A model generated the notes under the pieces. The model worked only from the letters and a program-made list of their open reading frames with translations. It searched no databases and was not told where the DNA came from. DNA of 50,362 bases from a bacterium (lineage in GTDB: Bacteria; Desulfobacterota; Binatia; UBA12015), in contig JAUIFY010000009.1 of assembly GCA_030430245.1 (NCBI GenBank), positions 1-50,362 on the forward strand, written 5' to 3'. Below are positions 1 to 22,618 of this stretch, piece after piece. The first letter of the stretch is position 1; the number at the start of each line of letters is the position of its first letter. The position numbers and the translations under genes were made by a program.

Positions 1-277
1 AGATCAGCTCGGGATCGATCTCCTTCAGCAGGGCATCGATCTGACCGACGAGCCTCCGGTTGTACTCGAACTCGTCGGACTCGATCTCGAGGAAGCGCAG
101 CTCGCCGCCGAGGATCTCGGCGCCCCTTCGCGCCTCTTCCTTGCGGCGCTCCTGCTGCGACGGCACCGTGCCGACGATCATGATCAGCTCGTCGCCGGCG
201 TCGACGTGCTTGGCAATGGTTCCGCCCATGCCGATCTCGAGATCGTCGGGATGCGCTCCGAAGACGAGCACCTTCAT
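1..277 (-). CDS. PIG-L (LmbE-like) family deacetylase, partial
   Basis: The first 92 codons of a gene that runs off the left edge of the window. The N-terminus reads MKVLVFGAHPDDLEIGMGG, carrying the AHPDD motif that binds the catalytic zinc in PIG-L/LmbE N-acetylglucosaminyl deacetylases, followed by GGTIAKH, typical of the first beta-alpha unit. Family members remove N-acetyl groups from GlcNAc-type sugars or glycoconjugates in the cytoplasm; the substrate here cannot be told. The ATG at 277 is the natural start because the motif lies at residues 8-12, its usual place. It begins 10 bases after the stop of the upstream ATP-grasp gene, so the two are probably co-transcribed and may serve one sugar-modification pathway. 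The C-terminal half is not visible. Confidence 0.9.
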   Translation of the reverse strand, partial: MKVLVFGAHPDDLEIGMGGTIAKHVDAGDELIMIVGTVPSQQERRKEEARRGAEILGGELRFLEIESDEFEYNRRLVGQIDALLKEIDPELI

Positions 278-287
278 TCGGGTTTCC

Positions 288-1244
288 TCACTTGGGTTCT
301 TGGTCCAGGACCACTTCGTCGTAGTAGCGAAGCACCGTGATTTCGCGGAACGGCTCGATCGTGACCTCACGCCCCTGAGCCAGCTCGAGCAAGAGCCATG
401 CGATGTTCACGCCGGCGAGCGTCGCGAAGATCGTGGCCCCGCCCATCCGCGGGTTGACCTCGACGAAACGAAGCCGCCCCTCCGCGTCGCGCTTCATCTG
501 CATGCAGGACGGCCCGCGAAGGCCGAGGAATGCGGCGAGATCGAGACAGGCCTGCTCCATCTCCGCGTCGTGCACCGTGCGTCCCTTGACGCAAATGCCC
601 TCCTTCACCGCGATGCGCTCTCGCGGCACCGCCACGAGCGGCCTCCCGTCGAGATCAGACAGGCAGTCGATCGAGTACTCCTCGCCGGGCAGGTAGTCCG
701 AGATGATCAGGTCGTCGCGCTGCGAGACCTCGTGTGCCAGCTCGGCCGCGTTCTCGCACTTGGCGATGCCCCGCGCCCCCTTGCCGCGCACGGGCTTCAC
801 GAAGCATGGGAACTCGGTACGGCTCTCGGGATCCAGCGTGGTGTGGGGCAATGGAAAGCGGTCGCGCGTCTTCTCGTAGAAGAGCCACTTGTCGATGCAT
901 GCCTCCACGGTGTCCCAGTCGCTCATGGCGACGACCACCCCGCGCTCCTCCAGCTCCCGCTTGCGCCGACTGTAGACGAGGGTGTCGAAGCCGGACGTCG
1001 GGAAGATGACGTCGATCTCTTCCCGCTCGATCACTTCGAGCGCGCGATCGAAGAAGGTCTCGTCCTTGATGGGCGGAAGCACGTGGTACGCATCGGCCAG
1101 ATAGAGGCCCGTCGACAGGGGGTTCGCGTCGGTCGAGACGATGCGGCCTTCGAAGCCGGCGCGCCGAAGCGAGCGCATGGCGCCGATCGCCGCGTCGCCG
1201 CCGCCGCCCGGCAGCAGTACGGTAGGGAGCGAGTCGTGACTCAT
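288..1244 (-). CDS. ATP-grasp ligase (carbamoyl-phosphate-synthase-large-chain-like fold)
   Basis: A 318-residue protein with an N-terminal Rossmann-type pre-ATP-grasp segment (LLPGGGGDAAIGAMRSL) and an ATP-grasp core. The core shows a nucleotide-contacting lysine in FPCFVKPVRGKGARG, the PGEEYSIDC strand, and the Mg-binding end motif FVEVNPRMGG. Such enzymes join a carboxylate (via acyl-phosphate) to an amine or thiol; the substrate is unknown. I place the start at ATG 1244, preceded by a GAGAAG-like ribosome site, rather than at a longer in-frame start near 1325 whose extra residues look non-coding. It is followed 10 bases later by the PIG-L deacetylase, suggesting a sugar or amino-sugar modification operon. 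Similar ATP-grasp genes often sit in surface-glycan loci, but that role is inference. Confidence 0.85.
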   Translation of the reverse strand: MSHDSLPTVLLPGGGGDAAIGAMRSLRRAGFEGRIVSTDANPLSTGLYLADAYHVLPPIKDETFFDRALEVIEREEIDVIFPTSGFDTLVYSRRKRELEERGVVVAMSDWDTVEACIDKWLFYEKTRDRFPLPHTTLDPESRTEFPCFVKPVRGKGARGIAKCENAAELAHEVSQRDDLIISDYLPGEEYSIDCLSDLDGRPLVAVPRERIAVKEGICVKGRTVHDAEMEQACLDLAAFLGLRGPSCMQMKRDAEGRLRFVEVNPRMGGATIFATLAGVNIAWLLLELAQGREVTIEPFREITVLRYYDEVVLDQEPK

Positions 1245-1450
1245 CGAACGTTCTTCTCGGGGAGGGTTTGCAGAGACGGGAGGCAGGGCCCGGTGGGAAA
1301 CCGCACGAAGTGTGCCCCAGGGCACATCAACCGCGGTGCTCGACGCGGGAAAACTTCGGTATACGACGGGGGCAGAGGCTGCACAAGACGGGACGTTCGG
1401 CGCGACCGGGCCCGCCGCCCCGCGAACGATCGGCCCGAGGCGGACGAGAC
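1245..1450. promoter_or_regulatory. Divergent intergenic region between the ATP-grasp and oxidoreductase operons
   Basis: About 205 bases separate two genes transcribed away from each other, so promoters for both operons must lie here. I see no clear sigma-70 -35/-10 pair and no operator palindrome. Reading frames across it are Arg/Pro-rich and look non-coding. Confidence 0.4.
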
Positions 1451-2029
1451 ATGGATCGTGAGGTTCTACTGACGGGGATCGGAGGCCAGGGGGTCCAGCT
1501 CGCAGCGAAGATGATCGCGCAGGCCGGAATGGCGGCCGGACGCGAGGTCATGCAGTTCAGCATGTTCTCGGGCGTGATGCGCGGAGGAGCGAGCGAGTGC
1601 ACGGTGGTCGTGGCGGATGGGCCGGTGGAGGCCCCGCCCATCGTGCCGCACGCCTGGGCCGCGATCGCGATGCACCCTACGGCGCTCGCGATGATCGAGG
1701 CGAAGCTCCGCCCGGGCAGCGCGATCCTCTACAACGCGTCGATCTTCGACGAGCCACCGAGTCGACCCGACTGCACCTGGTATGGCATCGACGCGACCGG
1801 CATTGCCGCCGCACACGAGAACCACCAGGCCCAGAGCCTCGTCGCGCTCGGCGCGTTCGCCCGTCTCACCGAGCTGGTGGATCTCGAGGCTCTCGCGGCT
1901 TCGCTCGCCGAGCTCCTCCCCGCGTACCGGCACCAGACCATCCCGGCCAACGCCGAGTGCCTTCGCGCCGGCGCCGCGGCCGCCGCGTCGATCGCCGGCC
2001 GGTTTCCGGCCTGGAACGGAGCCGACTGA
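1451..2029 (+). CDS. 2-oxoacid:ferredoxin oxidoreductase, gamma subunit
   Basis: A 192-residue gamma subunit. It opens with REVLLTGIGGQGVQLAAKM, the GxGGQG signature of the gamma domain that contacts CoA and stabilises the alpha-beta catalytic core. The next strand, FSMFSGVMRGGASECTVVV, matches the conserved MRGG segment. The complex oxidatively decarboxylates a 2-oxoacid to acyl-CoA while reducing ferredoxin, reversibly. The ATG at 1451 is chosen because the motif begins within ten residues; the long upstream extension in this frame lacks coding character. It is the first gene of a tightly coupled operon: its TGA overlaps the ATG of the ferredoxin subunit in a TGATG arrangement. The gamma-delta-alpha-beta order and separate subunits resemble Kor/Vor enzymes rather than fused pyruvate enzymes; substrate cannot be assigned from this subunit. 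Confidence 0.92.
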   Translation: MDREVLLTGIGGQGVQLAAKMIAQAGMAAGREVMQFSMFSGVMRGGASECTVVVADGPVEAPPIVPHAWAAIAMHPTALAMIEAKLRPGSAILYNASIFDEPPSRPDCTWYGIDATGIAAAHENHQAQSLVALGAFARLTELVDLEALAASLAELLPAYRHQTIPANAECLRAGAAAAASIAGRFPAWNGAD

Positions 2030-2271
2030 TGGCGAAGTCGATCGGCACCGTGGACATCCTCGTCGACAGCTGCAAAGGCTGCGAGCTCTGCATCCCCGTC
2101 TGCCCGCCGAAGGTCCTCGTCATGTCGAAGGCCGTGAACGCGATCGGGTTCCGGTATCCCGAGCTTCGGGACGGCTGCACGGGCTGCGAGCTCTGCGCCG
2201 AGATCTGCCCGGACTACTGCTTCGAGGTGTTTCGGGGCCGAGCGGCCGAGGCCGGGGAGGTCTCCGCATGA
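2029..2271 (+). CDS. 2-oxoacid:ferredoxin oxidoreductase, delta subunit (2[4Fe-4S] ferredoxin)
   Basis: An 80-residue ferredoxin-like subunit with two clusters of four cysteines: CKGCELCIPVCPP near residues 15-27 and CTGCELCAEICPD near residues 49-61. Each is the CxxCxxCxxxCP pattern that binds a [4Fe-4S] cluster, so the subunit passes electrons from the thiamine site to external ferredoxin. The start ATG overlaps the gamma-subunit stop, and its own stop overlaps the alpha-subunit start (ATGA), so translation is coupled on both sides. Confidence 0.93.
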   Translation: MAKSIGTVDILVDSCKGCELCIPVCPPKVLVMSKAVNAIGFRYPELRDGCTGCELCAEICPDYCFEVFRGRAAEAGEVSA

Positions 2272-3386
2272 CGAATCCGACTCGCGCGTTCCTGGAGGGT
2301 GGCCACGCGCTCGCGGAGGCCGCGATCCAGGCCGGGTGCCGTTTCTACTGCGGATATCCGATGACACCGTCGACCGAGGTTCTCGAGTACATGGCGAGGC
2401 GGATGCCCGAGGTGGGCGGGGTCTGCGTCAACGTCGAGGCCGAGCTCGAGGGGATCAACATGGTGTGGGGGGCCACCGGAGCAGGGGTCCGCTCGATGAT
2501 CGCGTCGACGACCAACGGCATGGCGCTCATGCAGGAGAGCCTCTCCGAGATGGTCGTCGGTCGGATCCCGGCCGTGATCGTCAACATGGGCCGCGGCCAG
2601 GGTGACTACTTCATGTGCACTCGAGGTGGCGGCCACGGTTCGAATCGCTGCATCGTGCTGGCACCGTGGACGGCCCAGGAGGCCGTCGGGACCGCGTACC
2701 GCGCCTTCTACCTCGCCGAGAAGTGGCGTCACCCCGTCATGATCTTCGGGGACTTCATCCTGAGCCACACGTCCGAGACCGTGACGTTCGGAGCGCCCGC
2801 GGACGCGACGGGCCCTCTCCCGGAGAAGGATTGGGCGACGGACGGAGCGCGCGGCCGCGCCCCGCGGCTTCTGACGTCGCTCGGCATGAAGATTCCGGAG
2901 GCACCGGACGGCACTCCGCTTCCCGACGGCCAGACGCGCACCGACGTGACGGCTCCGATGCGGATGGCCGTTCGACGCCACGAGGCGATCGCCGCGGAGG
3001 AGGTCCGGGTCGAGTCCGAGGGGCTGGACGACGCCGAGCTCGTCGTGACCGCGTTCGGCGTTCCGGCGCGCTTCGCGCGCTACGCCGCCAAGCTCGCGCG
3101 CGAGGACGGGATGAAGATCGGCTTCGTCCGCCCGTACACCCTCGTGCCCTTCCCGGAGGGCCGATTCCGCGAGGTCGCCGCGCGTGGCGTCCCCATCGCG
3201 GTGTTCGAGAACAACGCGGGACAGATGGTGCAGGACGTACGCCTCGCGGTGGAGGGGCGCACGCCCGTCCACTTCATCGGCGGAATCTCGATGGACAGCT
3301 CCGGCTTCGGAGTGGGACCCGAGATCGACGCCCTCCACATCCTCCAGCGACTGCGAGAGGTCTACGCGGCGCGATCCGCCGCCTGA
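2268..3386 (+). CDS. 2-oxoacid:ferredoxin oxidoreductase, alpha subunit (KorA/VorB-like)
   Basis: A 372-residue alpha subunit. Near residue 24 it has YCGYPMTPSTEVLEYMA, the GYPxTPSTE hallmark of this family, with the pyrimidine-binding VNVEAELEGINMVWGATGAG region around residues 57-75, and RGQGDYFMCTRGGGHG further on. The C-terminal third (from about residue 240) is the transketolase-C-like domain ending in FVRPYTLVPFPE and IAVFENNAGQM. The sequence resembles alpha subunits specific for 2-oxoglutarate or branched 2-oxoacids more than pyruvate, but this is motif-level judgement. The start overlaps the ferredoxin stop by four bases. With the beta subunit 9 bases downstream it forms the catalytic core. 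The enzyme implies a low-potential ferredoxin pool. Confidence 0.92.
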   Translation: MTNPTRAFLEGGHALAEAAIQAGCRFYCGYPMTPSTEVLEYMARRMPEVGGVCVNVEAELEGINMVWGATGAGVRSMIASTTNGMALMQESLSEMVVGRIPAVIVNMGRGQGDYFMCTRGGGHGSNRCIVLAPWTAQEAVGTAYRAFYLAEKWRHPVMIFGDFILSHTSETVTFGAPADATGPLPEKDWATDGARGRAPRLLTSLGMKIPEAPDGTPLPDGQTRTDVTAPMRMAVRRHEAIAAEEVRVESEGLDDAELVVTAFGVPARFARYAAKLAREDGMKIGFVRPYTLVPFPEGRFREVAARGVPIAVFENNAGQMVQDVRLAVEGRTPVHFIGGISMDSSGFGVGPEIDALHILQRLREVYAARSAA

Positions 3387-3395
3387 GGAGCCGCG

Positions 3396-4151
3396 ATGGC
3401 CAACGAACTGCAGAAAGTGTTCACCCGCTCCCCGCTTCTCGGCACGGACACCCACTCGCTCTGCCCGGGCTGCGGCGAGCCGACGGCGATCCGGGTCCTG
3501 ATGGAGAACGTGGAGGAGATGGAGGAACGCGAGAACGCGATCTGCGTCCTCGGAATCGGCTGCTACACCGCGTTCGCCTCGCTGATGGAGGTCGACTGTC
3601 AGCAGGCGATGCACGGGCGCGCGCCGGCTCAGGCGACCGGAGTGAAACGCGTCCTGCCCGATCGGCTGGTCTTCACGCTGCAAGGCGATGGCGACATGGT
3701 CACCGAGGGAATCCAGGAGATCATCCACGCGGCGGCGCGCGGAGAGAAGATCACCGCGATCTGCCTGAACAACGCCACCTTCGGCGAGACGGGCGGGCAC
3801 ATGACCGCGACGTCCGTGGTCGGTCAGAAATCGAAGAGCACGCTCGACGGCCGCGACCCCGACGTCCACGGCCACCCCATCCGGCTCCCCGAGATGTTGC
3901 GCGACCTCGACGGGGTCGCGTACGTCGCACGAGGCACGGTGCACACGCCCGTCGGCGCGAAGAAGACGAAGAAGCTTCTGCGGGCTGCGCTCGAGACCCA
4001 GCGTCGCGGGCTCGGCTTCTCCCTCGTCGAGATCCTCACGATGTGCCCGACGGGATGGTTCGTGCCGACCGCCGACGGACCGCGCTTCCAGGAGGAGAAC
4101 ATCCTGCCCGTCTTCGGGGTGGGCGAGCTCAAGCGCCCGGCCGAGCTGTGA
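3396..4151 (+). CDS. 2-oxoacid:ferredoxin oxidoreductase, beta (TPP-binding) subunit
   Basis: A 251-residue beta subunit carrying the thiamine diphosphate site. SLCPGCGEPTAIR near residue 22 is the family's N-terminal CPGCGH-like motif. LQGDGDMVTEG near residue 95 is the GDGD Mg/TPP motif, and NNATFGETGGHM near residue 125 supplies the rest of the diphosphate-binding loop. TGWFVPT near the end is also typical. There are no extra cysteine clusters, so electrons leave through the separate ferredoxin subunit. Its TGA overlaps the GTG of the next small gene, extending the operon. Confidence 0.92.
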   Translation: MANELQKVFTRSPLLGTDTHSLCPGCGEPTAIRVLMENVEEMEERENAICVLGIGCYTAFASLMEVDCQQAMHGRAPAQATGVKRVLPDRLVFTLQGDGDMVTEGIQEIIHAAARGEKITAICLNNATFGETGGHMTATSVVGQKSKSTLDGRDPDVHGHPIRLPEMLRDLDGVAYVARGTVHTPVGAKKTKKLLRAALETQRRGLGFSLVEILTMCPTGWFVPTADGPRFQEENILPVFGVGELKRPAEL

Positions 4152-4567
4152 CCCGGCCCGGCTGGGCCGCGGCGATCCGCGCCCGCGCCGCCGAGGCACC
4201 CGCGTGGATGCGGGAGCGCGCGAGCGCCGAGCTCCACATCGGCGGCTTCACCCAAGCGCGGCTGGAGACGCCCGTCCTGGAGGCGAGCGGACTCGACGAG
4301 CGGGCCGGAGGAGACGCGGTCGTGTTCTTTCTCGTGGCCGCCTCGGCGGCCGCCGCCCCGGTCGCGCGGATCCAGTGCTCCCGCTCCCAGATCGCCGCGC
4401 TCACCGCGGCCGCCCGCGACCGGGTCGCGACCGCGATCGAACGCGTCGACGACGAGAACGCCCATCTGATGCGGTACTTCGACGTCCATCTGCGACCGCC
4501 CGCGTCGATCGCGGTGGCGGACGCCGATCGACTCCGCCGAGCGCTCGAGGACGCCCTGGCCGGGTGA
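4148..4567 (+). CDS. Unknown 139-residue protein coupled to the oxidoreductase operon
   Basis: I do not recognise this family. The GTG start overlaps the beta-subunit stop (GTGA), the same coupling seen between other genes of the operon, which is the main reason to believe it. The protein starts VTRPGWAAAIRARAAEAPAW, has a hydrophobic patch VVFFLVAASAAAAPVARI near residues 58-75, and a charged helical C-terminus. No signal peptide, cysteine cluster or membrane span is evident, so it looks cytoplasmic. It may be an accessory or assembly factor for the oxidoreductase, but only position supports that. Confidence 0.5.
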   Translation: MTRPGWAAAIRARAAEAPAWMRERASAELHIGGFTQARLETPVLEASGLDERAGGDAVVFFLVAASAAAAPVARIQCSRSQIAALTAAARDRVATAIERVDDENAHLMRYFDVHLRPPASIAVADADRLRRALEDALAG

Positions 4568-11380: not shown

Positions 11381-12241
11381 TCAGACCGACGGGGGCTCCG
11401 GCCGATCGATCGGCACGCAAACCCGAAACCCCGTTCCCTGTGCGCGATAGCGCCGGCTCGGCGTGGTGACGCTGCACGCGCTACGCACGTTCGCCTTGGT
11501 GTGATGCACCGAGTAGCCCCACGAGCCACCCTTCACCGTATGGAACTCGGAGAGCGCGGGGTCGCGGTCGTTGTACGGGCTGCTCGTCCATTCCCAGACG
11601 CCCCCGGACATGTCCACGCAGCCATACGGCGAGACGTTCCCGGGATGGTGACCGACCGCCGTGGGGTGGCCGTTGCGCCAGTACCAACCCGAGCGCGCAT
11701 ACTCTCGCGACACCGGCACGACGAGGGAGAACAGGAACGTGTCGAGCCCGACGGCGCCACGGCCTTGCCACTGGAGCTCGGGACGGGGCGGCTCGTTCCC
11801 CCACGGGTAGGTGCGGCCGTCGGTGCCTCGCGCCGCCTTCTCCCACTGCTCCTCGGTGGGAAGCGAGCACGGTACACCGATCCGATCGCTCAACCAGCGA
11901 CAGTAGGCCCATGCGTCGTCTTGCGAGACGTCCACGATCGCCAGCTCGGCGTGACGTGCCGGATAGGCCGCACAGGGCGCGTACGCGCGAACGAGCCTTC
12001 CTCGCCACCCGCCGACGACCTCGTACCACGAACCTTCCCAGGGGTAGCCGGTCGACACCAGGAAGCTCTGCCACTGCGCGTACGTCACCGGGACGCGACC
12101 CAACCAGAACCCCGGGAGCTCGAGCGACTGTACGGGCCGCAGCTCGCGGCACTGCGGCAACCGCTCGTAGCATTCCTCGGGGCCATAGAGGAACGCGCCG
12201 GCCGGCACGTAGCAGAAGTCCGCGGGCCAGTCGGGCACCAT
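11381..12241 (-). CDS. SUMF1/FGE-fold protein lacking the FGE active-site cysteines
   Basis: A 286-residue single-domain protein of the formylglycine-generating-enzyme/SUMF1 fold. Signature pieces are PVTYAQWQSFL, VSQDDAWAYCRWLSD, LPTEEQWEKAARG, TYPWGN, NVSPYGCVDMSGGVWEWTSS, VKGGSWGY and a C-terminal GTGFRVCV. In true FGE the copper-binding cysteine pair lies just after the GGSW segment in an SxLCHxSYC-like stretch. Here that stretch is SVHHTKANVRSAC, with neither cysteine in register. The protein is therefore probably not a sulfatase activator but one of the many SUMF1 proteins with binding or iron-dependent roles. It has no signal peptide. It is divergent from the flippase gene with 82 bases between. 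Confidence 0.85.
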   Translation of the reverse strand: MVPDWPADFCYVPAGAFLYGPEECYERLPQCRELRPVQSLELPGFWLGRVPVTYAQWQSFLVSTGYPWEGSWYEVVGGWRGRLVRAYAPCAAYPARHAELAIVDVSQDDAWAYCRWLSDRIGVPCSLPTEEQWEKAARGTDGRTYPWGNEPPRPELQWQGRGAVGLDTFLFSLVVPVSREYARSGWYWRNGHPTAVGHHPGNVSPYGCVDMSGGVWEWTSSPYNDRDPALSEFHTVKGGSWGYSVHHTKANVRSACSVTTPSRRYRAQGTGFRVCVPIDRPEPPSV

Positions 12242-12323: not shown

Positions 12324-13778
12324 ATGCGGCCCACCCTCGGCACCCAGATGACCGCCGGGATCGGCTGGATGCTGGCCAACCAGGCGATCTCGCGGCTCTT
12401 CGACATCGTGGGCCTGGTGATCTTCGCGCGCTTGCTCCCGCCCGCCGACTTCGGACTCTTCGCGATGGCGGTGCTCGTGAGCACGATCGTCGACATGCTG
12501 GCATCGTTCGATTTCGACCTCGGCCTCATCCAGAAGACCGACGCCGACACCCGCCATTGGAACGCGGCCTTCACCCTCACGTTGTTGCAGCGCCTCTGCG
12601 CCGCGGCTCTCACGGCGGCCGTGGCCAGGCCCGCCGCCATGGGATTGGACATGCCGCACCTGGAGAGCCTGCTGTACGCGATGGCGGCCAGCTCGGCGTT
12701 GCTGGGGCTGCAGAACATCGGAGTCGTGGATTTTCGACGACGCCTCGAGATCCGACGAGAGTTCTGGTTCCAGGTCGGCGGACGAGCAGCCGGCTTCGGC
12801 GCGACGCTGGGCTGCGCGCTTCTTTGGGCCAACGCGTGGGCCCTCGTCGCCGGATGGCTCGCCAACCGTGTGGCCTCGGTCGTCCTGAGCTATGCGCTCC
12901 ACCGGTTCCGTCCGCGCCTGCGACTGGACGCCGCGGCCGATCTTCTGCACTTCTCCAAGTGGCTGTTCGTCAAGAACGCGCTGTCCTACCTCAACCACAA
13001 GCTCGACGACCTCGTCGTCGCGCGGGCGGCGGGAGCCGCCATGGTCGGCCAGTACAGCGTGTCCTACGACATCGCCAGCATGGGAAGTACCGAGCTGGTC
13101 TTCCCGATCAACCGAGTGGCGTTCCCGGGGTACGCGCGCGCCAGCCACGATCGCGAAACGTTGCGCCGGTACTTCCTCAACGTGGTGTCCCATGTGGCGA
13201 TCCTGACCCTGCCGATCGGTGCCGGCACGGTCGTGTTGGCCGAGCCGCTGGTCACGGTCCTGCTCGGGGAACCCTGGCGTCCCGCCATTCCTTTGCTCCG
13301 GGTGTTCGGCCTGGCCGGAATGATCCACGGAGTGGTCGCCAACGCGGGGCCCGTGTACCTGGCCCTCGGCAAGCCCCAGATCAGCGCAACCTTCGCCGCC
13401 GCGCGCGTCCTGTCGTTGGCCGGCCCTCTCGTCTGGGCCACGACGACCTTCGGCGCGATCGGCGCCGCGTGGACACAACTCTGCTGCAACGTGGTCTTCG
13501 CCCCGATCACGTACGCGACGGTGGCGAACCTGCTCGACCTACGGCTACCCCAAGCGATCGCCGCGCTGTGGCGCCCTGCGGTGGCCGCAACCACGATGGC
13601 TGTCGTGATCTCGGGCTTCTCGGACTCGGTTGCCACGGTGATGGGATTGGCGCTGGTCATGGCCGGCGGGGCCGTGGCGTACGCCGTCCTTCTGATCGGG
13701 CTCTGGCTGCTGGCCGGCCGACCCGCCTCCGCCGAGCGCGAGATCCTGCGGTTCGTGACCACGCGACGAAGGAGGTAG
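12324..13778 (+). CDS. Wzx-like lipopolysaccharide/oligosaccharide flippase (MOP superfamily)
   Basis: A 484-residue polytopic membrane protein with about 12-14 hydrophobic segments. The start GIGWMLANQAISRLFDIVGLVIFARLLPPADFGLFAMA is characteristic of polysaccharide flippases of the WzxC/RfbX type, and KWLFVKNALSYLNHKLDDLVV marks the middle repeat. These proteins move undecaprenyl-linked glycans across the inner membrane. It lies upstream of the GT2 gene and the peptide-modification cluster, with only a HupE-like gene on the opposite strand between. It could serve a surface-glycan pathway or export a lipid-linked or peptide-conjugated product; no dedicated lasso ABC exporter is present in the window. 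Confidence 0.87.
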   Translation: MRPTLGTQMTAGIGWMLANQAISRLFDIVGLVIFARLLPPADFGLFAMAVLVSTIVDMLASFDFDLGLIQKTDADTRHWNAAFTLTLLQRLCAAALTAAVARPAAMGLDMPHLESLLYAMAASSALLGLQNIGVVDFRRRLEIRREFWFQVGGRAAGFGATLGCALLWANAWALVAGWLANRVASVVLSYALHRFRPRLRLDAAADLLHFSKWLFVKNALSYLNHKLDDLVVARAAGAAMVGQYSVSYDIASMGSTELVFPINRVAFPGYARASHDRETLRRYFLNVVSHVAILTLPIGAGTVVLAEPLVTVLLGEPWRPAIPLLRVFGLAGMIHGVVANAGPVYLALGKPQISATFAAARVLSLAGPLVWATTTFGAIGAAWTQLCCNVVFAPITYATVANLLDLRLPQAIAALWRPAVAATTMAVVISGFSDSVATVMGLALVMAGGAVAYAVLLIGLWLLAGRPASAEREILRFVTTRRRR

Positions 13779-15058: not shown

Positions 15059-15188
15059 GGCAGCGACGGCTTCGCCGGTGTGGAGATCGTCTTCGGCGAT
15101 CACTCGCTCCCGGCCGGCGCGTACGCTATCACGCTCTCCGGGCACGCTCAAAAGAGACACGGCGACGTGCCCATCCAGAGCGGCGGAC

Positions 15189-16109
15189 ATGACCGACAGT
15201 GCCGGGCCTTCTTTCACCGTCGTGATCCCGACCTACGAACGCCCGGCGAGCCTCGCCCGCTGCCTTTCCGCGCTGTCGCGGGCCTCCATGGCACGATCTC
15301 GGTTCGAAGTGATCGTGATCGACGACACCGGCCGGGCCACCCTGGATCACCTCACCTCCGACTTCCAGGAGATCGATCTGATGGTCCTGCGTCAGGACGA
15401 GCGTGGTCCGGCCGCTGCGCGCAACGCTGGGGTCGCAGCAGCCCGCGGAACGTTCGTCGCGTTCACCGACGACGACTGCGAGCCCTCCCCCGACTGGCTG
15501 CACGCCCTCGAACGACATCTGAAGGGAGACCCGACCCAAGTGATCGGAGGGCGCACCTACAACGCCGTGGTCGACGATCCCTTCGCCGAAGCCAGCCACC
15601 TTCTGGTGGAGTTCGTCTCCGCACGCCCTGACCGCACCGGAGCCCGGTTCTTCGCAAGCAACAACTTGGCGATGGCACGATCGACCTTCGAATCCGTCGG
15701 CGGCTTCGATGTCGACTACCGCCGCGCGGCCGGCGAGGACCGCGATCTCTGCGATCGCCTGCACCGCGCCGGCCACCGGATGCGCTACGCGCCCCGAGCG
15801 GTGGTTGCGCATCACCACTCGCTGGGACTGGTCGGCTTCGTCCGCCAGCACTTCGACTACGGCCGAGGGGCGCACCGTTTTCGATCCGGTCGGGCCCGGA
15901 GCCGCGCCGGCCGCCTCGAGTTCGAAGGCGCCTCGTTCTATGCCCGGCTGCTCACCGCGCCCGTCGGACGGGTGAGCCCGTGGCGTGCAGGCCCGCTGAT
16001 GGCGCTCATGGCCCTCTCGCAAGTGGCTGTTTTCGCTGGCTTCTCGTGGCAGGCGGTCGAGAGTCGCCGGGGAGGACGAGCAAGACGAGCGGACGGCGGC
16101 GGAGCGTAG
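15189..16109 (+). CDS. Family 2 glycosyltransferase
   Basis: A 306-residue GT-A enzyme. It opens SFTVVIPTYERPASLARCL, the nucleotide-binding start of GT2. The metal-binding Asp cluster is TDDDCEPSPDW near residue 97, preceded by RGPAAARNAGVAAARGTFV. The acceptor/base region is GGFDVDYRRAAGEDRDLCDRL with the GED motif. A hydrophobic stretch near the C-terminus (LMALMALSQVAVFAGFSW) suggests membrane association. The ATG at 15189 puts the first strand at residue 7; the 37 extra upstream residues do not look coding. It ends 91 bases before the lasso-leader peptide gene on the same strand, so it may be the first gene of that transcription unit. Donor and acceptor are unknown. Confidence 0.9.
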   Translation: MTDSAGPSFTVVIPTYERPASLARCLSALSRASMARSRFEVIVIDDTGRATLDHLTSDFQEIDLMVLRQDERGPAAARNAGVAAARGTFVAFTDDDCEPSPDWLHALERHLKGDPTQVIGGRTYNAVVDDPFAEASHLLVEFVSARPDRTGARFFASNNLAMARSTFESVGGFDVDYRRAAGEDRDLCDRLHRAGHRMRYAPRAVVAHHHSLGLVGFVRQHFDYGRGAHRFRSGRARSRAGRLEFEGASFYARLLTAPVGRVSPWRAGPLMALMALSQVAVFAGFSWQAVESRRGGRARRADGGGA

Positions 16110-16200: not shown

Positions 16201-16290
16201 ATGAAGAAGCAGGAGAAGAAGAAGCCGTACGCGAAGCCGGAAGTGACGAAGCACGACCAGCTGTCCCAGATGACCTTCAGCTCTCACTGA
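16201..16290 (+). CDS. 29-residue lasso-type leader peptide with almost no core
   Basis: Too short for most gene finders but strongly supported: a perfect GGAGG ribosome site at 16191-16195, five bases before the ATG, and a flanking lasso-type gene set. The peptide is Lys-rich at first (MKKQEKKK), then PYAKPEV, which fits the YxxPxL/V motif that lasso B1/PqqD proteins bind, then a helical KHDQLSQM, then Thr24, which corresponds to the near-invariant Thr at the penultimate leader position. After the Thr only FSSH remains before TGA. A lasso core needs about 15 residues and an Asp/Glu at core position 7-9 to close the ring; neither exists here. The two Ser residues could be acceptors for the neighbouring kinase. 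No frameshift restores a longer convincing core. Confidence 0.75.
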   Translation: MKKQEKKKPYAKPEVTKHDQLSQMTFSSH

Positions 16291-16304: not shown

Positions 16305-16342
16305 GATCGACGGTCCCCCTACCGCGGAGCGGACCGTCGATC
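16305..16342 (+). promoter_or_regulatory. Perfect 12-bp hairpin between the leader peptide and nucleotidyltransferase genes
   Basis: The arms 16305-16316 (gatcgacggtcc) and 16331-16342 (ggaccgtcgatc) are exact reverse complements around a 14-base loop that contains accgcggagc. The hairpin starts 14 bases after the peptide stop and ends one base before the GTG of the next gene. There is no T-run after it, so it is not a standard terminator. It may protect the short upstream mRNA and lower translation of the downstream enzyme; the GGAG in the loop is the likely ribosome site for the GTG. Stem-loops between precursor and enzyme genes are known in proteobacterial lasso loci. Confidence 0.75.
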
Positions 16343-16343
16343 C

Positions 16344-17549
16344 GTGGACGACTCCTCCATGGACACCACGCGCCAGCTGGTGCGCGCGGTGGCTGCCGCG
16401 GACGAGCCCGAGGCGTTCGTCCACCAGTTCGAGGCGGCTGGCGGTGACTGGAACGACCTCACCGTGCGCGCCATGGTCATGGGACTGGCGCCCCTGTTGT
16501 TCGCACGGCTCGGCGAGCACGCCCCGGAGCGGATCCGCGCGCGGCTGGAGGCCAACCACCACGCGCACGCGAAGCGGTACGCGACCATCCGCGGGCAGCT
16601 GACCGAGCTGCTCACGGGTTGGAATGCGGCCGGATTGCGGCCGATCGCGCTCAAGGGCGTTCACCTCGCCGAACGAGTCTACGGCGATCCGGCCCTGCGT
16701 CCGATGAACGACATCGACGTCCTGTTCGCACCGAGCGAGCTCGCGACGGCCGAGCGGGTGCTCGCCGATCTGGGCTACCACGGAAAGCACCGTTCCCCCG
16801 AACGTGGTCCCGGCGTCGTCAAGCACACCAGCACCTGGAGGCGGGGAGACGCCGAGGCCGCATCCCCGAACCCCTACCTCTCGGGGGACGGAGAGCGAAT
16901 GGTCGAACCACACGGCTCTCTGAAGGAGCGTTGGTTTGGGCTCGAAGTCGACATCACACCCGGAGTGCGAGATCGAGCTCTGCCGATCGAGATCGGCGGG
17001 CAGCCATGCAGCGTCCTGTCCGCGGAAGATGCTTTGCTGCACCTTTGCGTGCACCTCTCCTTCAACCTGATCATGGGCCAGCCCTCGATGGTGCAGCTGA
17101 TCGACCTCGGCACGTTCACCGCGCGCCAATCGGTCGATTGGGAGACAATGGTGGCGCGCACCACGGCGCGCGGCGCGGCGGCGCACGTCCTGGCCAGTCT
17201 CGAGCTGGCCGCCGATCTATTGGCGGCTCCCGTACCGCAAGCCGCACGCTGGGGGTTGTGGGCCGCCGTGCCCCGTTCCCTGCATCGGACCGTCCGATCG
17301 GTGGGATTGCAGCACGTGCTACGCCGAACGCAGCAAGGCGCGATTCCCAATCTGCGCACGCGTCTCCGTCGCGGCCTCACCGATCGAGCCGCCGCTGCCG
17401 CGTGGGCCCCCGACCCGAGCACTCGCTGGAAAGTATGGCGCACGGCCTTCGCGTTCGTGCGCACGGACACCTGGCAGCAGCTATCGGCCATCCCGCAGAG
17501 CGGACGCGACGGCGGCCGGAACCGTCGAGACGTCGTCGGCGAGCCGTAG
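16344..17549 (+). CDS. Nucleotidyltransferase-fold protein (NTP_transf_5 type), lasso-tailoring-like
   Basis: 401 residues from a GTG at 16344 (an ATG at 16359 is the alternative). Features are LTGWNAAGLRPIALKGVHLAERVYGDPALRPMNDIDVLF, where GxxLAxxxYxDPxxRPMxDxD is the metal-binding pattern of this family, and EVDITPG further on, supplying another acidic strand. A helical all-alpha C-terminus follows. Family members occur with HprK-like kinases in lasso loci such as those of paeninodin and pseudomycoidin and in exopolysaccharide loci, where they are proposed to act on phosphorylated products. The 3' end overlaps the 3' end of the opposing kinase gene by 69 bases. It is probably co-transcribed with the leader peptide through the hairpin. 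Confidence 0.82.
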   Translation: MDDSSMDTTRQLVRAVAAADEPEAFVHQFEAAGGDWNDLTVRAMVMGLAPLLFARLGEHAPERIRARLEANHHAHAKRYATIRGQLTELLTGWNAAGLRPIALKGVHLAERVYGDPALRPMNDIDVLFAPSELATAERVLADLGYHGKHRSPERGPGVVKHTSTWRRGDAEAASPNPYLSGDGERMVEPHGSLKERWFGLEVDITPGVRDRALPIEIGGQPCSVLSAEDALLHLCVHLSFNLIMGQPSMVQLIDLGTFTARQSVDWETMVARTTARGAAAHVLASLELAADLLAAPVPQAARWGLWAAVPRSLHRTVRSVGLQHVLRRTQQGAIPNLRTRLRRGLTDRAAAAAWAPDPSTRWKVWRTAFAFVRTDTWQQLSAIPQSGRDGGRNRRDVVGEP

Positions 17550-18425
17550 CGCAAACCCAGGAGCGGCGGCGGCGAGCTGGCCCAGCACCGCGAGGTGGGG
17601 CGAGATCATGGACTTGTCCCACCCTTCGACGGCATGCGGAAGCATTCTTCGAATCGTGTCGGCTGCTCCGAGCGGTTCGAGGCGGTGGTCGGGACGCCTC
17701 TCGATCTCGGGGAAGAGAATCGCGCCCAAGGATGCGCTGTTCGCCCATACCTCCGGCCACACCGACTCCGCGGCGACGACGATCTTCCCGCGGCCGTCGG
17801 CGGCGGTCCCCGCAGCCAGGTGCCGGGTGCTCGCGAAGCGCGCGAGCGTGTCCGGAAACGCCGAAAGGCGTCCCGGATAGCTGAGGATCGACCCGGCTTC
17901 GGCGACGAGAGGAGAATCGTTCGAGAGCAGCTTCCAGCCGGCGTCGAGCAGGCTCATGCCCGTGGTGGTCTTCCCGGCCCCCACCCCCCCGACGATCAGC
18001 GCCGCGCGCCCCTCGCGGCACGCAGCGAACGCATGGATCAGGAAGCGACGACGACGTCGCAGGTGAGGGGAAAGGGAAACGGCCACGAGGTCCTCGAGAA
18101 CGCCGTACGTTCGGAGCGCGGCCGGAACGATCCGGAGAACACTCGTGGCCCCAGCCAGATCGATCTCGATCTGCCCGAACCGGGGAAAGTGAGCACGCAC
18201 GAAGTCGCTGTCGACGTAGTAGTGCAACAGCGCCCCCTGCGAGAAGTCTGGAGCCCGATCGGGGGCCGCCGGCGCTCGGTCCACGATTCGCATGCGACAA
18301 CGGATGCCGACACCGTCGCTCGGTGCCCGCGGCGCGGACGCGAAGATCGATTGCCAGGCCGCACACCCCGCGTCGTCTCCCTCGACCGACACACGCAGGC
18401 CGTGCAGATCCCAGCTCGACACCAT
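17481..18425 (-). CDS. HprK-like (HPr kinase/phosphorylase-related) kinase
   Basis: 314 residues from ATG 18425. The P-loop is VGGVGAGKTTTGMSLLDAGW near residue 144, followed by LSNDSPLV, matching the HprK C-terminal kinase domain (Walker A, then the metal-binding Asp). The N-terminal half, with HYYVDSDFVRAHFPRFGQIEIDL, is typical of HprK-related proteins in peptide-modification and exopolysaccharide loci rather than true HPr kinases. Related enzymes in paeninodin-type lasso clusters phosphorylate the C-terminal Ser of the precursor. Here the precursor tail is FSSH, so Ser phosphorylation is a plausible function. The gene is divergent from PqqD (60 bases; a ctcgcgcgag palindrome at 18455-18464) and overlaps the nucleotidyltransferase tail-to-tail. 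Confidence 0.85.
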   Translation of the reverse strand: MVSSWDLHGLRVSVEGDDAGCAAWQSIFASAPRAPSDGVGIRCRMRIVDRAPAAPDRAPDFSQGALLHYYVDSDFVRAHFPRFGQIEIDLAGATSVLRIVPAALRTYGVLEDLVAVSLSPHLRRRRRFLIHAFAACREGRAALIVGGVGAGKTTTGMSLLDAGWKLLSNDSPLVAEAGSILSYPGRLSAFPDTLARFASTRHLAAGTAADGRGKIVVAAESVWPEVWANSASLGAILFPEIERRPDHRLEPLGAADTIRRMLPHAVEGWDKSMISPHLAVLGQLAAAAPGFALRLADDVSTVPAAVASALRDGR

Positions 18426-18485: not shown

Positions 18486-18764
18486 ATGGAGGTGAACGAT
18501 CAGACGGTATTGCGGCGGTCGGACGGTACGACGTTCGAAGTCGCCGCCGGGGAAGCGATCGTGATCGACCTGGACAGCGGCACGTACTTTTCGCTCAACG
18601 AGGTGGGAACGGTCTTCTGGCAGCGCCTCGACGGCCGACAGACGCTTCGGGAACACGCCGAGGCCATCGCGACGGACTACGATGTGGACGTCTCCGTGGC
18701 CGTCGCCGACCTCATCGAGCTCACGGCGCGACTTCGCGCAGAGCGACTGGTGGACGTCGGTTGA
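18486..18764 (+). CDS. PqqD-like RiPP leader-recognition protein (lasso B1)
   Basis: A 92-residue stand-alone PqqD/RRE domain. It contains VVxDLDSGTYFSLNEVGTVFWQ in slightly varied form (residues about 20-42), the beta strands and helix that bind leader peptides, and ends in a winged-helix-like DLIELTARLRAERLVDV. In lasso pathways this B1 protein grips the YxxP motif of the leader and presents it to B2 and the cyclase. The leader peptide at 16201 carries such a motif. The gene sits directly before B2 (TGA to GTG, 4 bases), giving the usual B1-B2-C order. Confidence 0.9.
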   Translation: MEVNDQTVLRRSDGTTFEVAAGEAIVIDLDSGTYFSLNEVGTVFWQRLDGRQTLREHAEAIATDYDVDVSVAVADLIELTARLRAERLVDVG

Positions 18765-18768
18765 TCGA

Positions 18769-19254
18769 GTGACGCGGCTGCGACACGTCATCCAGGCGCT
18801 GAGGTTGTTGCCGCGGCTCGCGTTCGCTCGGCAACGTGCGCTGCTCGTGGAGCTGAGGACGTTCTGTCGACGACTCCCCGACCTCCTGGAGCAGCCCCTT
18901 CCCGAGGCGATGGCCGAGATCACGCCGGAGGTCGGCCCGAGTGAATGGTCGGCCGACGAGCTGCGAGACCTCGCCGACGTCGCGGCCTTGATGGTTCGCG
19001 ACTCGCCACTCGCGCTGTGCCTGCGGCGCTCCTTGACCCGATACAGGGTCTTGCGACGAGCGGGGATCCCGGTGGTCGTGCAGTTCGGCGCCAAGCGGGC
19101 GGGGACACCGCGACCCGACACGCTGACCGGTCACGCCTGGCTGACCCTGGACGGCGCTCCCTACCACGAGCCGGACGACCGGTGGGCCGCATTCACCCCG
19201 ACGTACCGCTACCCGCCGAGCGGCGACGTCCCCGGGACGGATCACGCGGGGTGA
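18769..19254 (+). CDS. Lasso peptide biosynthesis B2 protein (transglutaminase-like leader peptidase)
   Basis: 161 residues from GTG 18769, the only start that gives a compact protein beginning after the PqqD stop. Residues about 92-100 read SPLALCLRRSL with the catalytic Cys, followed by RVLRRAGIPVVVQFGAKR and then LTGHAWLTLDG with the catalytic His and a downstream Asp, the transglutaminase-like triad of B2 proteases. Family members cut the leader after the conserved Thr-X pair. In this locus the cut would release only about three residues, so either cleavage happens elsewhere or the substrate is unusual. It ends four bases before the AsnB-like gene. Confidence 0.88.
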   Translation: MTRLRHVIQALRLLPRLAFARQRALLVELRTFCRRLPDLLEQPLPEAMAEITPEVGPSEWSADELRDLADVAALMVRDSPLALCLRRSLTRYRVLRRAGIPVVVQFGAKRAGTPRPDTLTGHAWLTLDGAPYHEPDDRWAAFTPTYRYPPSGDVPGTDHAG

Positions 19255-19257
19255 GTC

Positions 19258-21108
19258 GTGTGCGGCTTGGCGGGCGTCGTGGGAGATCGGGAGGTCGCGT
19301 GCCGCTTGCCGACCGCCGTCGAGGCCCTCCGCCATCGCGGGCCGGATGACGAAGGTGTGTGGGCGGCCGATGGCGTGGGACTCGCCGCGACCCGATTGAG
19401 CGTCATCGATCTCGAGCACGGCCAACAGCCCATGACGGATGCAGCGGGCACATCGGCCGTGGTCTTCAACGGCGAGATCGTCAACGCATCGGCGTTGCGC
19501 GCGGAGCTCGAGGCCGCCGGACGGGTCCTGCGCACCCGCTGCGATACCGAGGTGGTCCTGCATGCCTACCTCCACTGGGGCGACGACTTCGTCACTCGCC
19601 TGCATGGGATGTTCTCGCTGGCACTCTGGGACGGCGAGCGTCGCCGCCTCGTCCTGGCCGTCGACCGGTTCGGGATCAAGCCGCTCTTTTGGACCCGCCG
19701 GGGGAACCGACTCGCCTTCGCTTCGGAGCCGGCTGCGCTGCTCGCTCTCGTACCGGATCTCTCGCACGGCACGGATGTCGCGGCCTTGTCCACCCTTCTG
19801 GAGATCGGCTTCTGCCTACCTCCGTCGACGCCGTGGGCAGGTGTGCGACAGCTCGCCCCCGGTCACCGACTCGTATGGCAGGACGGGGCGCTCGAGCACG
19901 CCCGTTGGTGGGAGCTCTCGCCGCCACCCGACGGAACCCCGACCGTTTCCCGCCGCGAGGCGGCGCGGGCTCTTCGTGACGAGCTGTGGAAGACGGTTGC
20001 GGCCTGGCGGACCAGCGATGTCCCGGTGGGCTCCCTGTTGTCGGGAGGCCTCGACTCGAGCACCGTCGCCCGCCTGCTCACCGACCAGACGGAGCACCCC
20101 CTTCACACCTTCACCATCGGTTTCACGAACCCGCGCTACGACGAGACCCAGCATGCCGACCGAGTCGCCCGCGCGCTCGGGACTCGACACCATCGCGTGA
20201 CGTTCGACGATCGCAGCTTCGACTCCCTACCCGAGGTCGTTCGCCACCTCGGAACACCGCAGTGCGCGGCCACGGCAGTGCCGATCTACCACCTCTATCG
20301 CACGTGTCGCGAAGCCGGCATCAAGGTGGTGATGACGGGAGAAGGGGCGGACGAGCTGTTCGGCGGGTACCACTGGTTCACGGGCGACGGGTTGGCCCGG
20401 GGACTCCTGCGGGCGCCCCGCGCGCTGCGGCGCGTCGCGCGGCTCGGTCCGATGTCCGCTGCAGCGCGGCGCGTCTTGACCGCCGACCCGGGTGACGCGG
20501 TCGACCGGTACGTCGAGTGGATCCGGGTGGGCTCCCCCGCCGTCGTCTCCAGGTTGCTCGGCCGCACCTCGGACCCCGTCCCCGACCTCTTTCGGGATGC
20601 GCTCGGCCGCCGTCTCGACGGACGGGCACCCGTGGATCAGTTCACCCTCCTGGAGCTGACGGGTCGTCTCCCCGCGTTCATCAACCTCACCGTCGACCGC
20701 ATGAGCATGGCCCACGGCGTCGAGGCCCGTCCGCCGTTCCTGGACCACCGGCTGTGGACTCACGTGACCTCGCTGCCGACCAGGCTCCGCCCGGGCAAGG
20801 CGCTGCTGCGAGACGCGATGACGGGCTCGCTACCGCGACCGACCCTGCACCGCGCCAAACGAGGGTTGGCCACTCCCCATGCCACATGGTGGCGACAGGG
20901 ATCCCTCCCGGAATGGGCCGAGGACGTGCTCACCCCGCGCGCATTCGCCGGCGTGGGGCTGATCGACGGGGAGCGGTTCGCCGCGCTGCGGCGCGAACAC
21001 GTCGCCGGAACCGATCGCAGCGGATTGCTCACCGGCGTCCTGACGACGCAGCTGTGGGCGGCGGCGGGCGGAGAAGCAGGTCTTTGCGGATGTGGGCCGG
21101 ATTGCTAG
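19258..21108 (+). CDS. Asparagine synthase-like enzyme (lasso cyclase C type)
   Basis: 616 residues from a GTG that puts Cys at position 2 (MCGLAGVVG), as needed for the N-terminal nucleophile of class II glutaminase domains. The glutaminase part has RHRGPDDEGVW, RLSVIDLEHGQQPM and FNGEIVN. The synthetase part has the ATP-pyrophosphatase loop SLLSGGLDSSTVA near residue 260 and GEGADELFGGYHWF near residue 360. True AsnB makes asparagine; homologues beside B1/B2 genes are lasso cyclases that adenylate an Asp/Glu side chain. Gene order here favours the latter. With no acidic core residue in the neighbouring peptide the acceptor is unclear. Sulfated or glycan loci also carry AsnB paralogues, an alternative. 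Confidence 0.88.
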   Translation: MCGLAGVVGDREVACRLPTAVEALRHRGPDDEGVWAADGVGLAATRLSVIDLEHGQQPMTDAAGTSAVVFNGEIVNASALRAELEAAGRVLRTRCDTEVVLHAYLHWGDDFVTRLHGMFSLALWDGERRRLVLAVDRFGIKPLFWTRRGNRLAFASEPAALLALVPDLSHGTDVAALSTLLEIGFCLPPSTPWAGVRQLAPGHRLVWQDGALEHARWWELSPPPDGTPTVSRREAARALRDELWKTVAAWRTSDVPVGSLLSGGLDSSTVARLLTDQTEHPLHTFTIGFTNPRYDETQHADRVARALGTRHHRVTFDDRSFDSLPEVVRHLGTPQCAATAVPIYHLYRTCREAGIKVVMTGEGADELFGGYHWFTGDGLARGLLRAPRALRRVARLGPMSAAARRVLTADPGDAVDRYVEWIRVGSPAVVSRLLGRTSDPVPDLFRDALGRRLDGRAPVDQFTLLELTGRLPAFINLTVDRMSMAHGVEARPPFLDHRLWTHVTSLPTRLRPGKALLRDAMTGSLPRPTLHRAKRGLATPHATWWRQGSLPEWAEDVLTPRAFAGVGLIDGERFAALRREHVAGTDRSGLLTGVLTTQLWAAAGGEAGLCGCGPDC

Positions 21109-21124
21109 TCGAGGCGCGTACGGC

Positions 21125-22618
21125 ATGGGCGAAACCGTCTTCCTCGTGAATTTCCGCAACAGGTCGGAGTTCTATCCGCCGTTCGGGATCATGTATGTGG
21201 CCGACGCGCTCGAGCAGGCGGGCTTCGCGACCGAGTTGGTGCACGACACCGCCGAAGGCATCGACGCGCTGGTCGAACGGGTGGCGGCCGAACGTCCGCT
21301 CTTCGTCGGGTTCTCGACCATCACGGGCCCGCAGCTGCGACCGACCATCGAAGCGTCCGAACGAGTTCACGCGCTCGGAGTGCCCGTGGTGTGGGGCGGT
21401 GTGCACGCGAGCATCATGCCGGCCGAGATCCTCCGCGAGCCGTACGTCGATCACGTCGTCGTCGGCGAAGGAGAGGAGACCGTTCAGGAGCTGGCTCGCA
21501 CCCTGGCGGCGCAGGACACGAGCGGCATCCCGATCGATCGCGACGAGCCCATCCTCGGGCTGGCCAGCAAGCGCGGGGACGGATCGACGACGCTTGGGGG
21601 TACCCGCCCGTTCATCGACGACCTCGACCGCTTCCGCCCCCGTTGGGACAAGGTGGACGTCGAGCGCTACCTGATCCCGAGCGGCCCGTATCGCCGCGCC
21701 ATCCCGGTCTACATCTCGCGCGGCTGCCCGTTCCGATGCGGCTTTTGCTACAACGAAGTCGTCATGAAGCGCACGTGGCGTCAGCACAGCGACGCCTTCA
21801 TCGTCGATCAGATCCAGATGCTCCGAGACCGACACGGCATCGACGCGGTCGACTATGCGGACGACTACCTCTTCGGGCGCCCCAAGCCGATGAGGCGTCT
21901 GGTGGAAATCGTCGGGATGCCGTGGAGTGGTCAGGTCCGCGTTCAACTCCTCTCGAAGGAGTTCGTCGGATGGATGAGGCAGACCCGCTGCCAGTGGGTC
22001 AACGTCGGCGCCGAGTCCGTCTCCCAGCGGATGCTCGACCTGATGAGCAAGGATCAGAAGGACTGGCAGGTGCCGTGGGGGATCCGAAATCTGGTCGAGG
22101 GAGCGCCAGACATCGAAGCGAACGTTTCTTTCATCGTCGGGTTGCCACACGAGCGCCCCGAGGACGCTCGGGCGAATCTCGACGGCATCGAGTACCTCTG
22201 CGGTCTCAGCAGGAACGTTCGCTGCTCGGTCAGCATGTACATGCCCTACCCGGGGACGCCCCTGTGGCAACGAGCCCTCGAAGCCGGATACGAGCCGCCG
22301 TCGACCCAATCGGGTTGGGCCGAGCTCGATCTCGACCGGAGCAACACACCGTGGATGGACGACGCCGAAGCCCGTGCGATGTCCTCCATCAACGACGTCC
22401 TGTTCGTGGGTCGATCCGAGGGGCACTGGGTGCTGTGGCCCTATTACGCGCTGCTTCGCCGGCGATGGCGCACGGGGAACTTCCGGCACTACTGGGAAGG
22501 GTGGATGAAGGAGCGCCTGCTGCAGTCACCAGCACGTCCGCTTCTGCAGTGGGCCATCGACCACCTCGTGCGGTTCAACGCGGCGACTCACAAAGGGCCG
22601 ACGTCCGAGGCCGGCTGA
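21125..22618 (+). CDS. B12-binding-domain radical SAM protein
   Basis: 497 residues from ATG 21125, 16 bases after the AsnB-like gene. Residues about 1-130 look like a cobalamin-binding Rossmann domain (PPFGIMYVADALEQAGF, then VVWGGVHASIMPAE and VVVGEGEETVQELA), although the His-on-cobalt DxHxxG motif is not obvious. The radical SAM core starts YISRGCPFRCGFCYNEV, with the CxxxCxxC iron-sulfur motif, and continues VNVGAESVSQRMLDLM and FIVGLPHE. Such enzymes methylate or rearrange unactivated carbons in natural products, lipids and cofactors. Position makes it a likely tailoring enzyme of the leader-peptide locus. The last 31 bases overlap the opposing SGNH gene. Confidence 0.87.
   Translation: MGETVFLVNFRNRSEFYPPFGIMYVADALEQAGFATELVHDTAEGIDALVERVAAERPLFVGFSTITGPQLRPTIEASERVHALGVPVVWGGVHASIMPAEILREPYVDHVVVGEGEETVQELARTLAAQDTSGIPIDRDEPILGLASKRGDGSTTLGGTRPFIDDLDRFRPRWDKVDVERYLIPSGPYRRAIPVYISRGCPFRCGFCYNEVVMKRTWRQHSDAFIVDQIQMLRDRHGIDAVDYADDYLFGRPKPMRRLVEIVGMPWSGQVRVQLLSKEFVGWMRQTRCQWVNVGAESVSQRMLDLMSKDQKDWQVPWGIRNLVEGAPDIEANVSFIVGLPHERPEDARANLDGIEYLCGLSRNVRCSVSMYMPYPGTPLWQRALEAGYEPPSTQSGWAELDLDRSNTPWMDDAEARAMSSINDVLFVGRSEGHWVLWPYYALLRRRWRTGNFRHYWEGWMKERLLQSPARPLLQWAIDHLVRFNAATHKGPTSEAG

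Follow-up and report, generated by a model that had tools for sequence, protein, structure and literature searches.

In the paeninodin system, an HprK-like kinase (PadeK) with an Asp-Asp motif acts on a lasso-type precursor, its substrate being the C-terminal serine of a threaded core. For pseudomycoidin (PsmK, PsmN), the pertinent passages of two reviews describe a kinase and a nucleotidyltransferase that act on a serine of a lasso-leader precursor, which has a full lasso core and a C-terminal serine (PMC9266682, PMC8498205). The bsf cluster of Bradymonas sediminis (BsfA/B1/B2/C/K/N) is described in sections of a further paper (PMC10368454), according to which the kinase BsfK phosphorylates an internal serine near the start of the core (Ser3), while the precursor BsfA has a full core with a ring from Gly1 to Asp8 and an Ile at position −2. 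The same sections give the published numbering of lasso leaders, in which YxxPxL occupies −17 to −12 and Thr stands at −2 (PMC10368454).

The locus analysed here lies on contig JAUIFY010000009.1 of assembly GCA_030430245.1 (Desulfobacterota, Binatia), of which a stretch of 50,362 nucleotides, the window, was analysed as a whole. Its precursor peptide, A, and the genes around it have in common with the bsf cluster the YxxPxL register, a split B1/B2, an HprK-like kinase, a nucleotidyltransferase and an AsnB-like C protein, and the internal serine used by BsfK resembles the first Ser proposed below as the site of modification in A (sections cited, PMC10368454). However, the full core, the Ile at −2 and the Asp-Asp kinase of the bsf system are all missing from the A system, which does contain an FGE-like protein and a B12 radical-SAM enzyme, neither of which is named for the bsf cluster in those sections. 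The likeness to pseudomycoidin is one of enzyme type, and A differs from that precursor in ending with His and in having no lasso core. With paeninodin the A system shares an HprK-like kinase and a lasso-type precursor, but it differs in the C-terminal residue, in the kinase motif and in the lack of a threaded core.

Precursor A and its homologues

A is encoded on the forward strand at 16201–16290 as a peptide of 29 residues (MKKQEKKKPYAKPEVTKHDQLSQMTFSSH), in an ORF with a GGAGG ribosome-binding site upstream. In the frame of this ORF, positions 16273–16290 read T-F-S-S-H-stop, with the tail FSSH at 16276–16287 (forward strand), and a scan of all six frames found FSxH-stop at this single place in the window. 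Residues Y10, P13, V15 and T25 of the 29 correspond to Y−17, P−14, V−12 and T−2 and are followed by Phe−1, an exact and gapless lasso register whose spacing is identical across 14 aligned sequences; the leader of A therefore has both the lasso YxxPxL feature at −17 to −12 and the Thr at −2. The core that follows consists of three residues, Ser-Ser-His. An Asp or Glu at core position 7–9, required for the macrolactam of a lasso peptide, is absent from the A family, as is the C-terminal Ser of paeninodin, because every A homologue ends in His. The initial annotation had drawn its comparison from paeninodin; this was not upheld, given the C-terminal His and the Asn found in place of the first Asp of the kinase motif (below), and BsfK is a better precedent than the paeninodin kinase.

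Homologues of A were collected by two routes. An alignment of window N with the L051 nucleotidyltransferase, used to scan public genomes, gave 80 loci; 15 of these, all from Chloroflexota and mostly from Anaerolineae, encode N at 42–57 % identity. The sequence upstream of N was searched with a leader pattern that set no condition on the tail. An A homologue of 21–23 residues, counted from the nearest ATG, precedes N in 14 of the 14 loci with upstream sequence, with the tail FSSH in 13 and FSAH in one (L096), a recurrence beyond what chance would give; the remaining locus (L092) offers just 18 bases ahead of N and was excluded from the count. A precursor profile of 14 sequences found 15 of 396 genomes of the Chloroflexota class at E<1e-10, seven of them new, with tails of FSSH (five genomes), FSAH (G590) and FSMH (G778). 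The tail was part of the precursor HMM (A5), so these seven genomes are biased towards FSxH, whereas the 14 loci derived from the nucleotidyltransferase are unbiased. Profile matches with E>0.01 (L230–L237, L239 and L240) were taken as chance, and a leader match in G706 (L229), where the contig stops before the tail, was not counted.

The two routes together yielded 24 distinct A coding sequences from 21 genomes, including that of the window (FSSH 21, FSAH two, FSMH one). Two copies of A are present in each of L086 and L090, identical as peptides and different as DNA. Ser-x-His followed by a stop codon was found in 24 of 24 genes, gathered with a tail-containing pattern, and likewise in all 14 loci that were collected with no condition on the tail, in agreement with the initial proposal that the FSSH tail may be the entire core. 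Conservation of Ser in homologous tails, which that proposal had named as a check, was borne out for one serine and not for the other: the first Ser (16279–16281) and the C-terminal His (16285–16287) are invariant, while the second Ser is replaced in three of the 24 sequences, by Ala (L096, L227) or Met (L228). Since the C-terminal residue is His throughout and the second Ser is variable, the target of the kinase, if it has one here, should be the first Ser. The invariant columns in the first 17 A sequences were Tyr, Lys, Pro, Lys, Leu, Thr, Phe, the first Ser and the last His. For the 24 distinct coding sequences, which were collected with a pattern that itself demanded T-F-S-x-H, pN and pS were 0.25 and 0.77 in the leader and 0.14 and 0.62 in the tail. 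Judged from this variation, the A genes are under purifying selection.

Beyond the Chloroflexota, a pairwise-similarity search with the 29-residue A in 58 relatives gave nothing convincing except lasso-like leaders. Among 395 genomes of the window's own phylum, the precursor profile matched the window A and, at E 2e-5 or weaker, one other genome (G419), whose tails differ. Five tandem leader-like peptides are encoded in that genome at 9150–9990 of L258 (tails TALEPPSAVG, TGGLRASEEF, TGGAPASDQT, TGGLLSSRED and TSGDLSSQDT), adjoining B12 radical-SAM, PqqD, B2 and HprK-like genes, and two more are encoded at 9055–9275 of L259 (tails TAGRDGSQVID and TAGRDGSER); these peptides form another short-core lasso-leader family. 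The L258 array is like the A system in placing short-tailed lasso-leader peptides with B1, B2, kinase-like and B12 radical-SAM genes, but its five tails all differ from one another, have about ten residues and do not include FSSH. Ordinary lasso-like precursors with longer tails after the same type of leader were seen in the window's class near K, N and C homologues (L075, L077). Among the other nucleotidyltransferase loci, L106, L113, L114, L115 and L120 encode leader-like peptides with Cys-containing tails, such as AGCKS, and represent another RiPP-like group. HprK-like genes also occur with glycosyltransferases, and mostly with PqqD-like or nucleotidyltransferase genes, in L078, L080, L083 and L084, where no precursor was recognised and where ultra-short precursors might be hidden too. 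Searches of the open-licence literature in PubMed Central yielded nothing on the A peptide family, which, given that scope, is weak evidence of absence.

The gene set around A and its active sites

A is followed by N, a PF14907 nucleotidyltransferase (16344–17549, forward), which lies tail to tail with K, an HPrK/PEPCK-fold kinase-like protein (17481–18425, reverse), confirming that a kinase gene and a nucleotidyltransferase gene lie beside the peptide. The link of the kinase to A was strengthened by the homologues, as K orthologues travel with A and N in 13 of 14 Chloroflexota genomes. The description of these two enzymes as a tailoring pair was too narrow, since K, B1, B2, the AsnB-like protein, the B12 radical-SAM enzyme and the FGE-like protein all recur with A as a conserved set.

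B1 (18486–18764, forward) is a predicted PqqD-like leader-binding protein (PF05402, 3.2e-16) and is 53 % identical to the B1 of L092. B2 (approximately 18760–19254, forward, with the start inferred) belongs to the lasso leader-peptidase family (NF033537, 40.3 bits, cut-off 33) and has the conserved Cys and His of the lasso B2 peptidases, with C87 and H125 invariant in six of six sequences. It is followed by C, an AsnB-like amidotransferase (19258–21108, forward), and by the B12-binding radical SAM enzyme (21092–22618, forward), for which orthologues with 60–70 % identity were found in 12 of the 14 Chloroflexota genomes. That K was not found in one of these genomes and the radical-SAM enzyme not in two could be due to incomplete MAGs. 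An FGE-sulfatase-domain protein is encoded at 11381–12241 on the reverse strand (PF03781, 140 bits); it is 64–67 % identical to the Chloroflexota copies beside A and N in L088, L089, L091 and L093, and related copies are present in L197, L199, L207, L209, L246 and L250. One Cys (C256) is invariant in the C-terminal part of eight sequences of this protein; formylglycine-generating enzyme has an active-site Cys pair. Membership of the set is less sure for a family-2 glycosyltransferase just upstream of A (15078–16109, forward), a type common in the Chloroflexota loci, and a MOP flippase (12324–13778, forward), a possible exporter, is a candidate member.

The order of the genes varies among loci. 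A, N, DUF5693, FGE-like, radical-SAM, K and C genes lie in one stretch in L246 and L250, with B2 also detected in L250, and C, B2, B1, K and the radical-SAM gene lie together in L196, while in L247, L248, L249 and L252 A stands beside the radical-SAM gene and N comes after that. A DUF5693 gene follows N in many Chloroflexota loci; none is present in the window, and none was found in its genome, which is 87.5 % complete. A scan of genome contigs with the kinase alone returned no match, nor did plasmid searches for the kinase and for the radical-SAM protein.

Two of the enzymes have active sites that depart from those of lasso peptide systems. The C protein starts with MCG in nine of nine cases (the window and eight Chloroflexota clusters), so that the glutaminase Cys2 is kept, whereas the Cys was found in none of the 15 lasso-type C proteins of the window's class with a readable N-terminus, which start with MSG, MSA, MGG or similar. 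The loss of this Cys in the lasso-type proteins compared here is therefore not shared by C, which has instead the N-terminal Cys and the TIGR01536 score (413.4 bits, curated cut-off 267.1) of a glutamine-hydrolysing asparagine synthetase; among solved structures, a hydroxyamidotransferase and AsnB are closest to it. Because C keeps the Cys and passes this cut-off, it should deliver ammonia and not close a ring.

The AlphaFold2 model of K (pLDDT 90) has the HPrK/PEPCK fold, with PEPCK as the best Foldseek match (6.9e-10) and HPrK at 2.3e-5. Its motif, H131-G146-G149-G151-K152-T153-N169-D170, has the same spacing as H148-G163-G166-G168-K169-S170-D186-D187 of BsfK, with Asn for the first Asp of the Asp-Asp, and thus departs from the H-G-G-G-K-S-D-D of lasso-peptide kinases. 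This Asn was present in 16 of 16 K kinases and Asp-Asp in six of six comparison kinases from other cluster types, counts that refer to P-loops of the form seen by the motif pattern, with the kinases of L024, L027 and L033 not read and with ABC-type ATPases, recognised by motif in L020 and L041 of the comparison set and once in L201, excluded. A second kinase in G438 (L180) has Asn-Asp too, and in a profile alignment of K with HPrK/P the Asn falls on the first Asp (E 0.02). Alanine at D186 or D187 impairs BsfK, as given in the sections cited of PMC10368454. With Asn-Asp at this place, kinase activity of K cannot be assumed, and K may not phosphorylate Ser at all. For N, the model (pLDDT 89) gave a weak match to ANT(2'')-type nucleotidyltransferases (best E 2e-3), and its DxD (D123, D125) is invariant in 17 of 17 orthologues. 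By the features tested, the A system is not a lasso peptide system, though much of the machinery is common to both.

Origin of the cluster

Positions 1–4494 of the window and the sequence from 31432 onward lie approximately 130 to 1300 bases apart in three of the three same-genus genomes examined. As the flanks are adjacent in these genomes, a segment of approximately 27 kb with the cluster (approximately 4490–31430) is extra in the window. No integrase, tRNA or long end repeats were found at the ends of this segment. Misbinning was rejected as an explanation for the contig, because 30.5–50.4 kb is approximately 67–81 % identical (longest matches) to same-genus genomes and 1–4.5 kb matches them too. 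No orthologue of the radical-SAM enzyme was found in any other of the 395 genomes of the window's phylum. In a tree of this enzyme, the window copy grouped with Chloroflexota G436 (97/97) and was nested in other Chloroflexota, on a long branch and with a remote outgroup. The cluster was probably acquired from Chloroflexota, which is the likely, though not proven, direction of transfer.

Proposed pathway and rival readings

The reading we favour, and consider rather probable, is that A gives rise to a RiPP with Ser-x-His (or Phe-Ser-x-His) as its entire core, the tail being modified by the recurring enzymes. The data show that the peptide is conserved, in which register its leader lies, which genes accompany it and how two active sites have changed; the chemical steps and the product proposed here are inferred from the protein families. 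B1 would bind the YxKPxV leader of A, and K and N would act at the invariant first Ser by phosphorylation followed by nucleotidyl or sugar transfer, by analogy with BsfK and PsmN. Action somewhere on the tail is also predicted for the B12 radical-SAM enzyme and the FGE-like protein. B2 would cut after Phe−1, as the register suggests, and C would use ammonia from glutamine to form an amide, in the simplest case at the carboxyl of the C-terminal His, instead of closing a lasso ring. The nearby glycosyltransferases and flippase may decorate and export the product.

A more far-reaching proposal, which we put forward tentatively and as somewhat doubtful, is that these loci constitute a separate RiPP class, found mainly in Chloroflexota, in which the lasso leader and leader peptidase are kept, the kinase-fold enzyme has altered chemistry and the product, derived from a tripeptide, hardly varies in structure (Ser-x-His with a modified Ser and, probably, a C-terminal amide made by the glutamine-dependent AsnB-like enzyme). 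Under that proposal, so constant a tail would suit a cofactor or signal better than an antibiotic. PQQ and mycofactocin are RiPP-derived small molecules with fixed cores of a few residues, and their pathways use a PqqD-like protein and radical SAM chemistry. The A system resembles them in its invariant short core, PqqD-like protein and radical-SAM enzyme, and the window GT2 scored 165 bits against MftF, below the cut-off of 280; the leader, protease and enzyme set differ.

One rival is retained alongside the main reading, namely that the FSSH end anchors a phosphate-linked glycan or small molecule that is built on it and then cut off, so that A is a carrier and never the product. The nearly invariant tail, the glycosyltransferases and nucleotidyltransferases of many loci and the flippase in the window are all consistent with such a role, for which PsmN, as described in the pertinent passages of PMC9266682, provides a precedent of sugar transfer to phosphorylated Ser. 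However, conservation of a lasso-type leader peptidase with intact Cys and His implies cleavage after T−2/F−1, and some A loci (e.g. L086, L094 and L098) have no window-related glycosyltransferase in the stretch read; we regard a carrier role as unlikely. The paeninodin or pseudomycoidin pathway proper, acting on a shortened core to make a lasso peptide with phosphate or, as in pseudomycoidin, a hexose installed on phosphoserine by the nucleotidyltransferase, would account for the leader register, B1, B2 and the types of kinase and nucleotidyltransferase, but is very improbable with no residue 7–9 for a ring, a C-terminal His and not Ser, an intact C glutaminase in nine of nine proteins and Asn for Asp in 16 of 16 kinases.

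Little credence is likewise given to A being a regulatory leader ORF or attenuator for N that encodes an inert peptide. The 53 bases that separate A from N downstream contain a perfect 12-bp inverted repeat on the forward strand (16305–16342, arms 16305–16316 and 16331–16342; fold z=−2.49), which is a possible attenuator, and CAC encodes the His in each of the first 17 sequences. The hairpin is not conserved as such, however, being present after two of the 24 A genes (the second case is L089), and A precedes the radical-SAM gene and not N in four loci. Moreover, selection acts on the amino acids, the sequence is that of a lasso leader, and in the two genomes with two A copies the same peptide is encoded by different DNA. 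That A is a degenerate lasso precursor which lost its core in this one genome has almost no probability: although the ORF is short and the class holds lasso-like precursors of the ordinary, longer-tailed kind (L075, L077), the short form is kept in 20 other genomes, and the homologues refute this explanation.

The A loci demonstrate that lasso leader machinery can accompany a precursor without a lasso core. Such precursors will probably escape both gene finders and lasso miners, since A genes have 21–29 codons. HprK-like kinases and PF14907 nucleotidyltransferases are two puzzling families, for which A is a minimal and directly testable substrate. With A read as a RiPP precursor, the cluster raises the possibility of a RiPP metabolite of fixed structure in uncultured bacteria, and the FSSH tail, almost the same in two bacterial phyla, suggests a so far unstudied route to a very small modified peptide.
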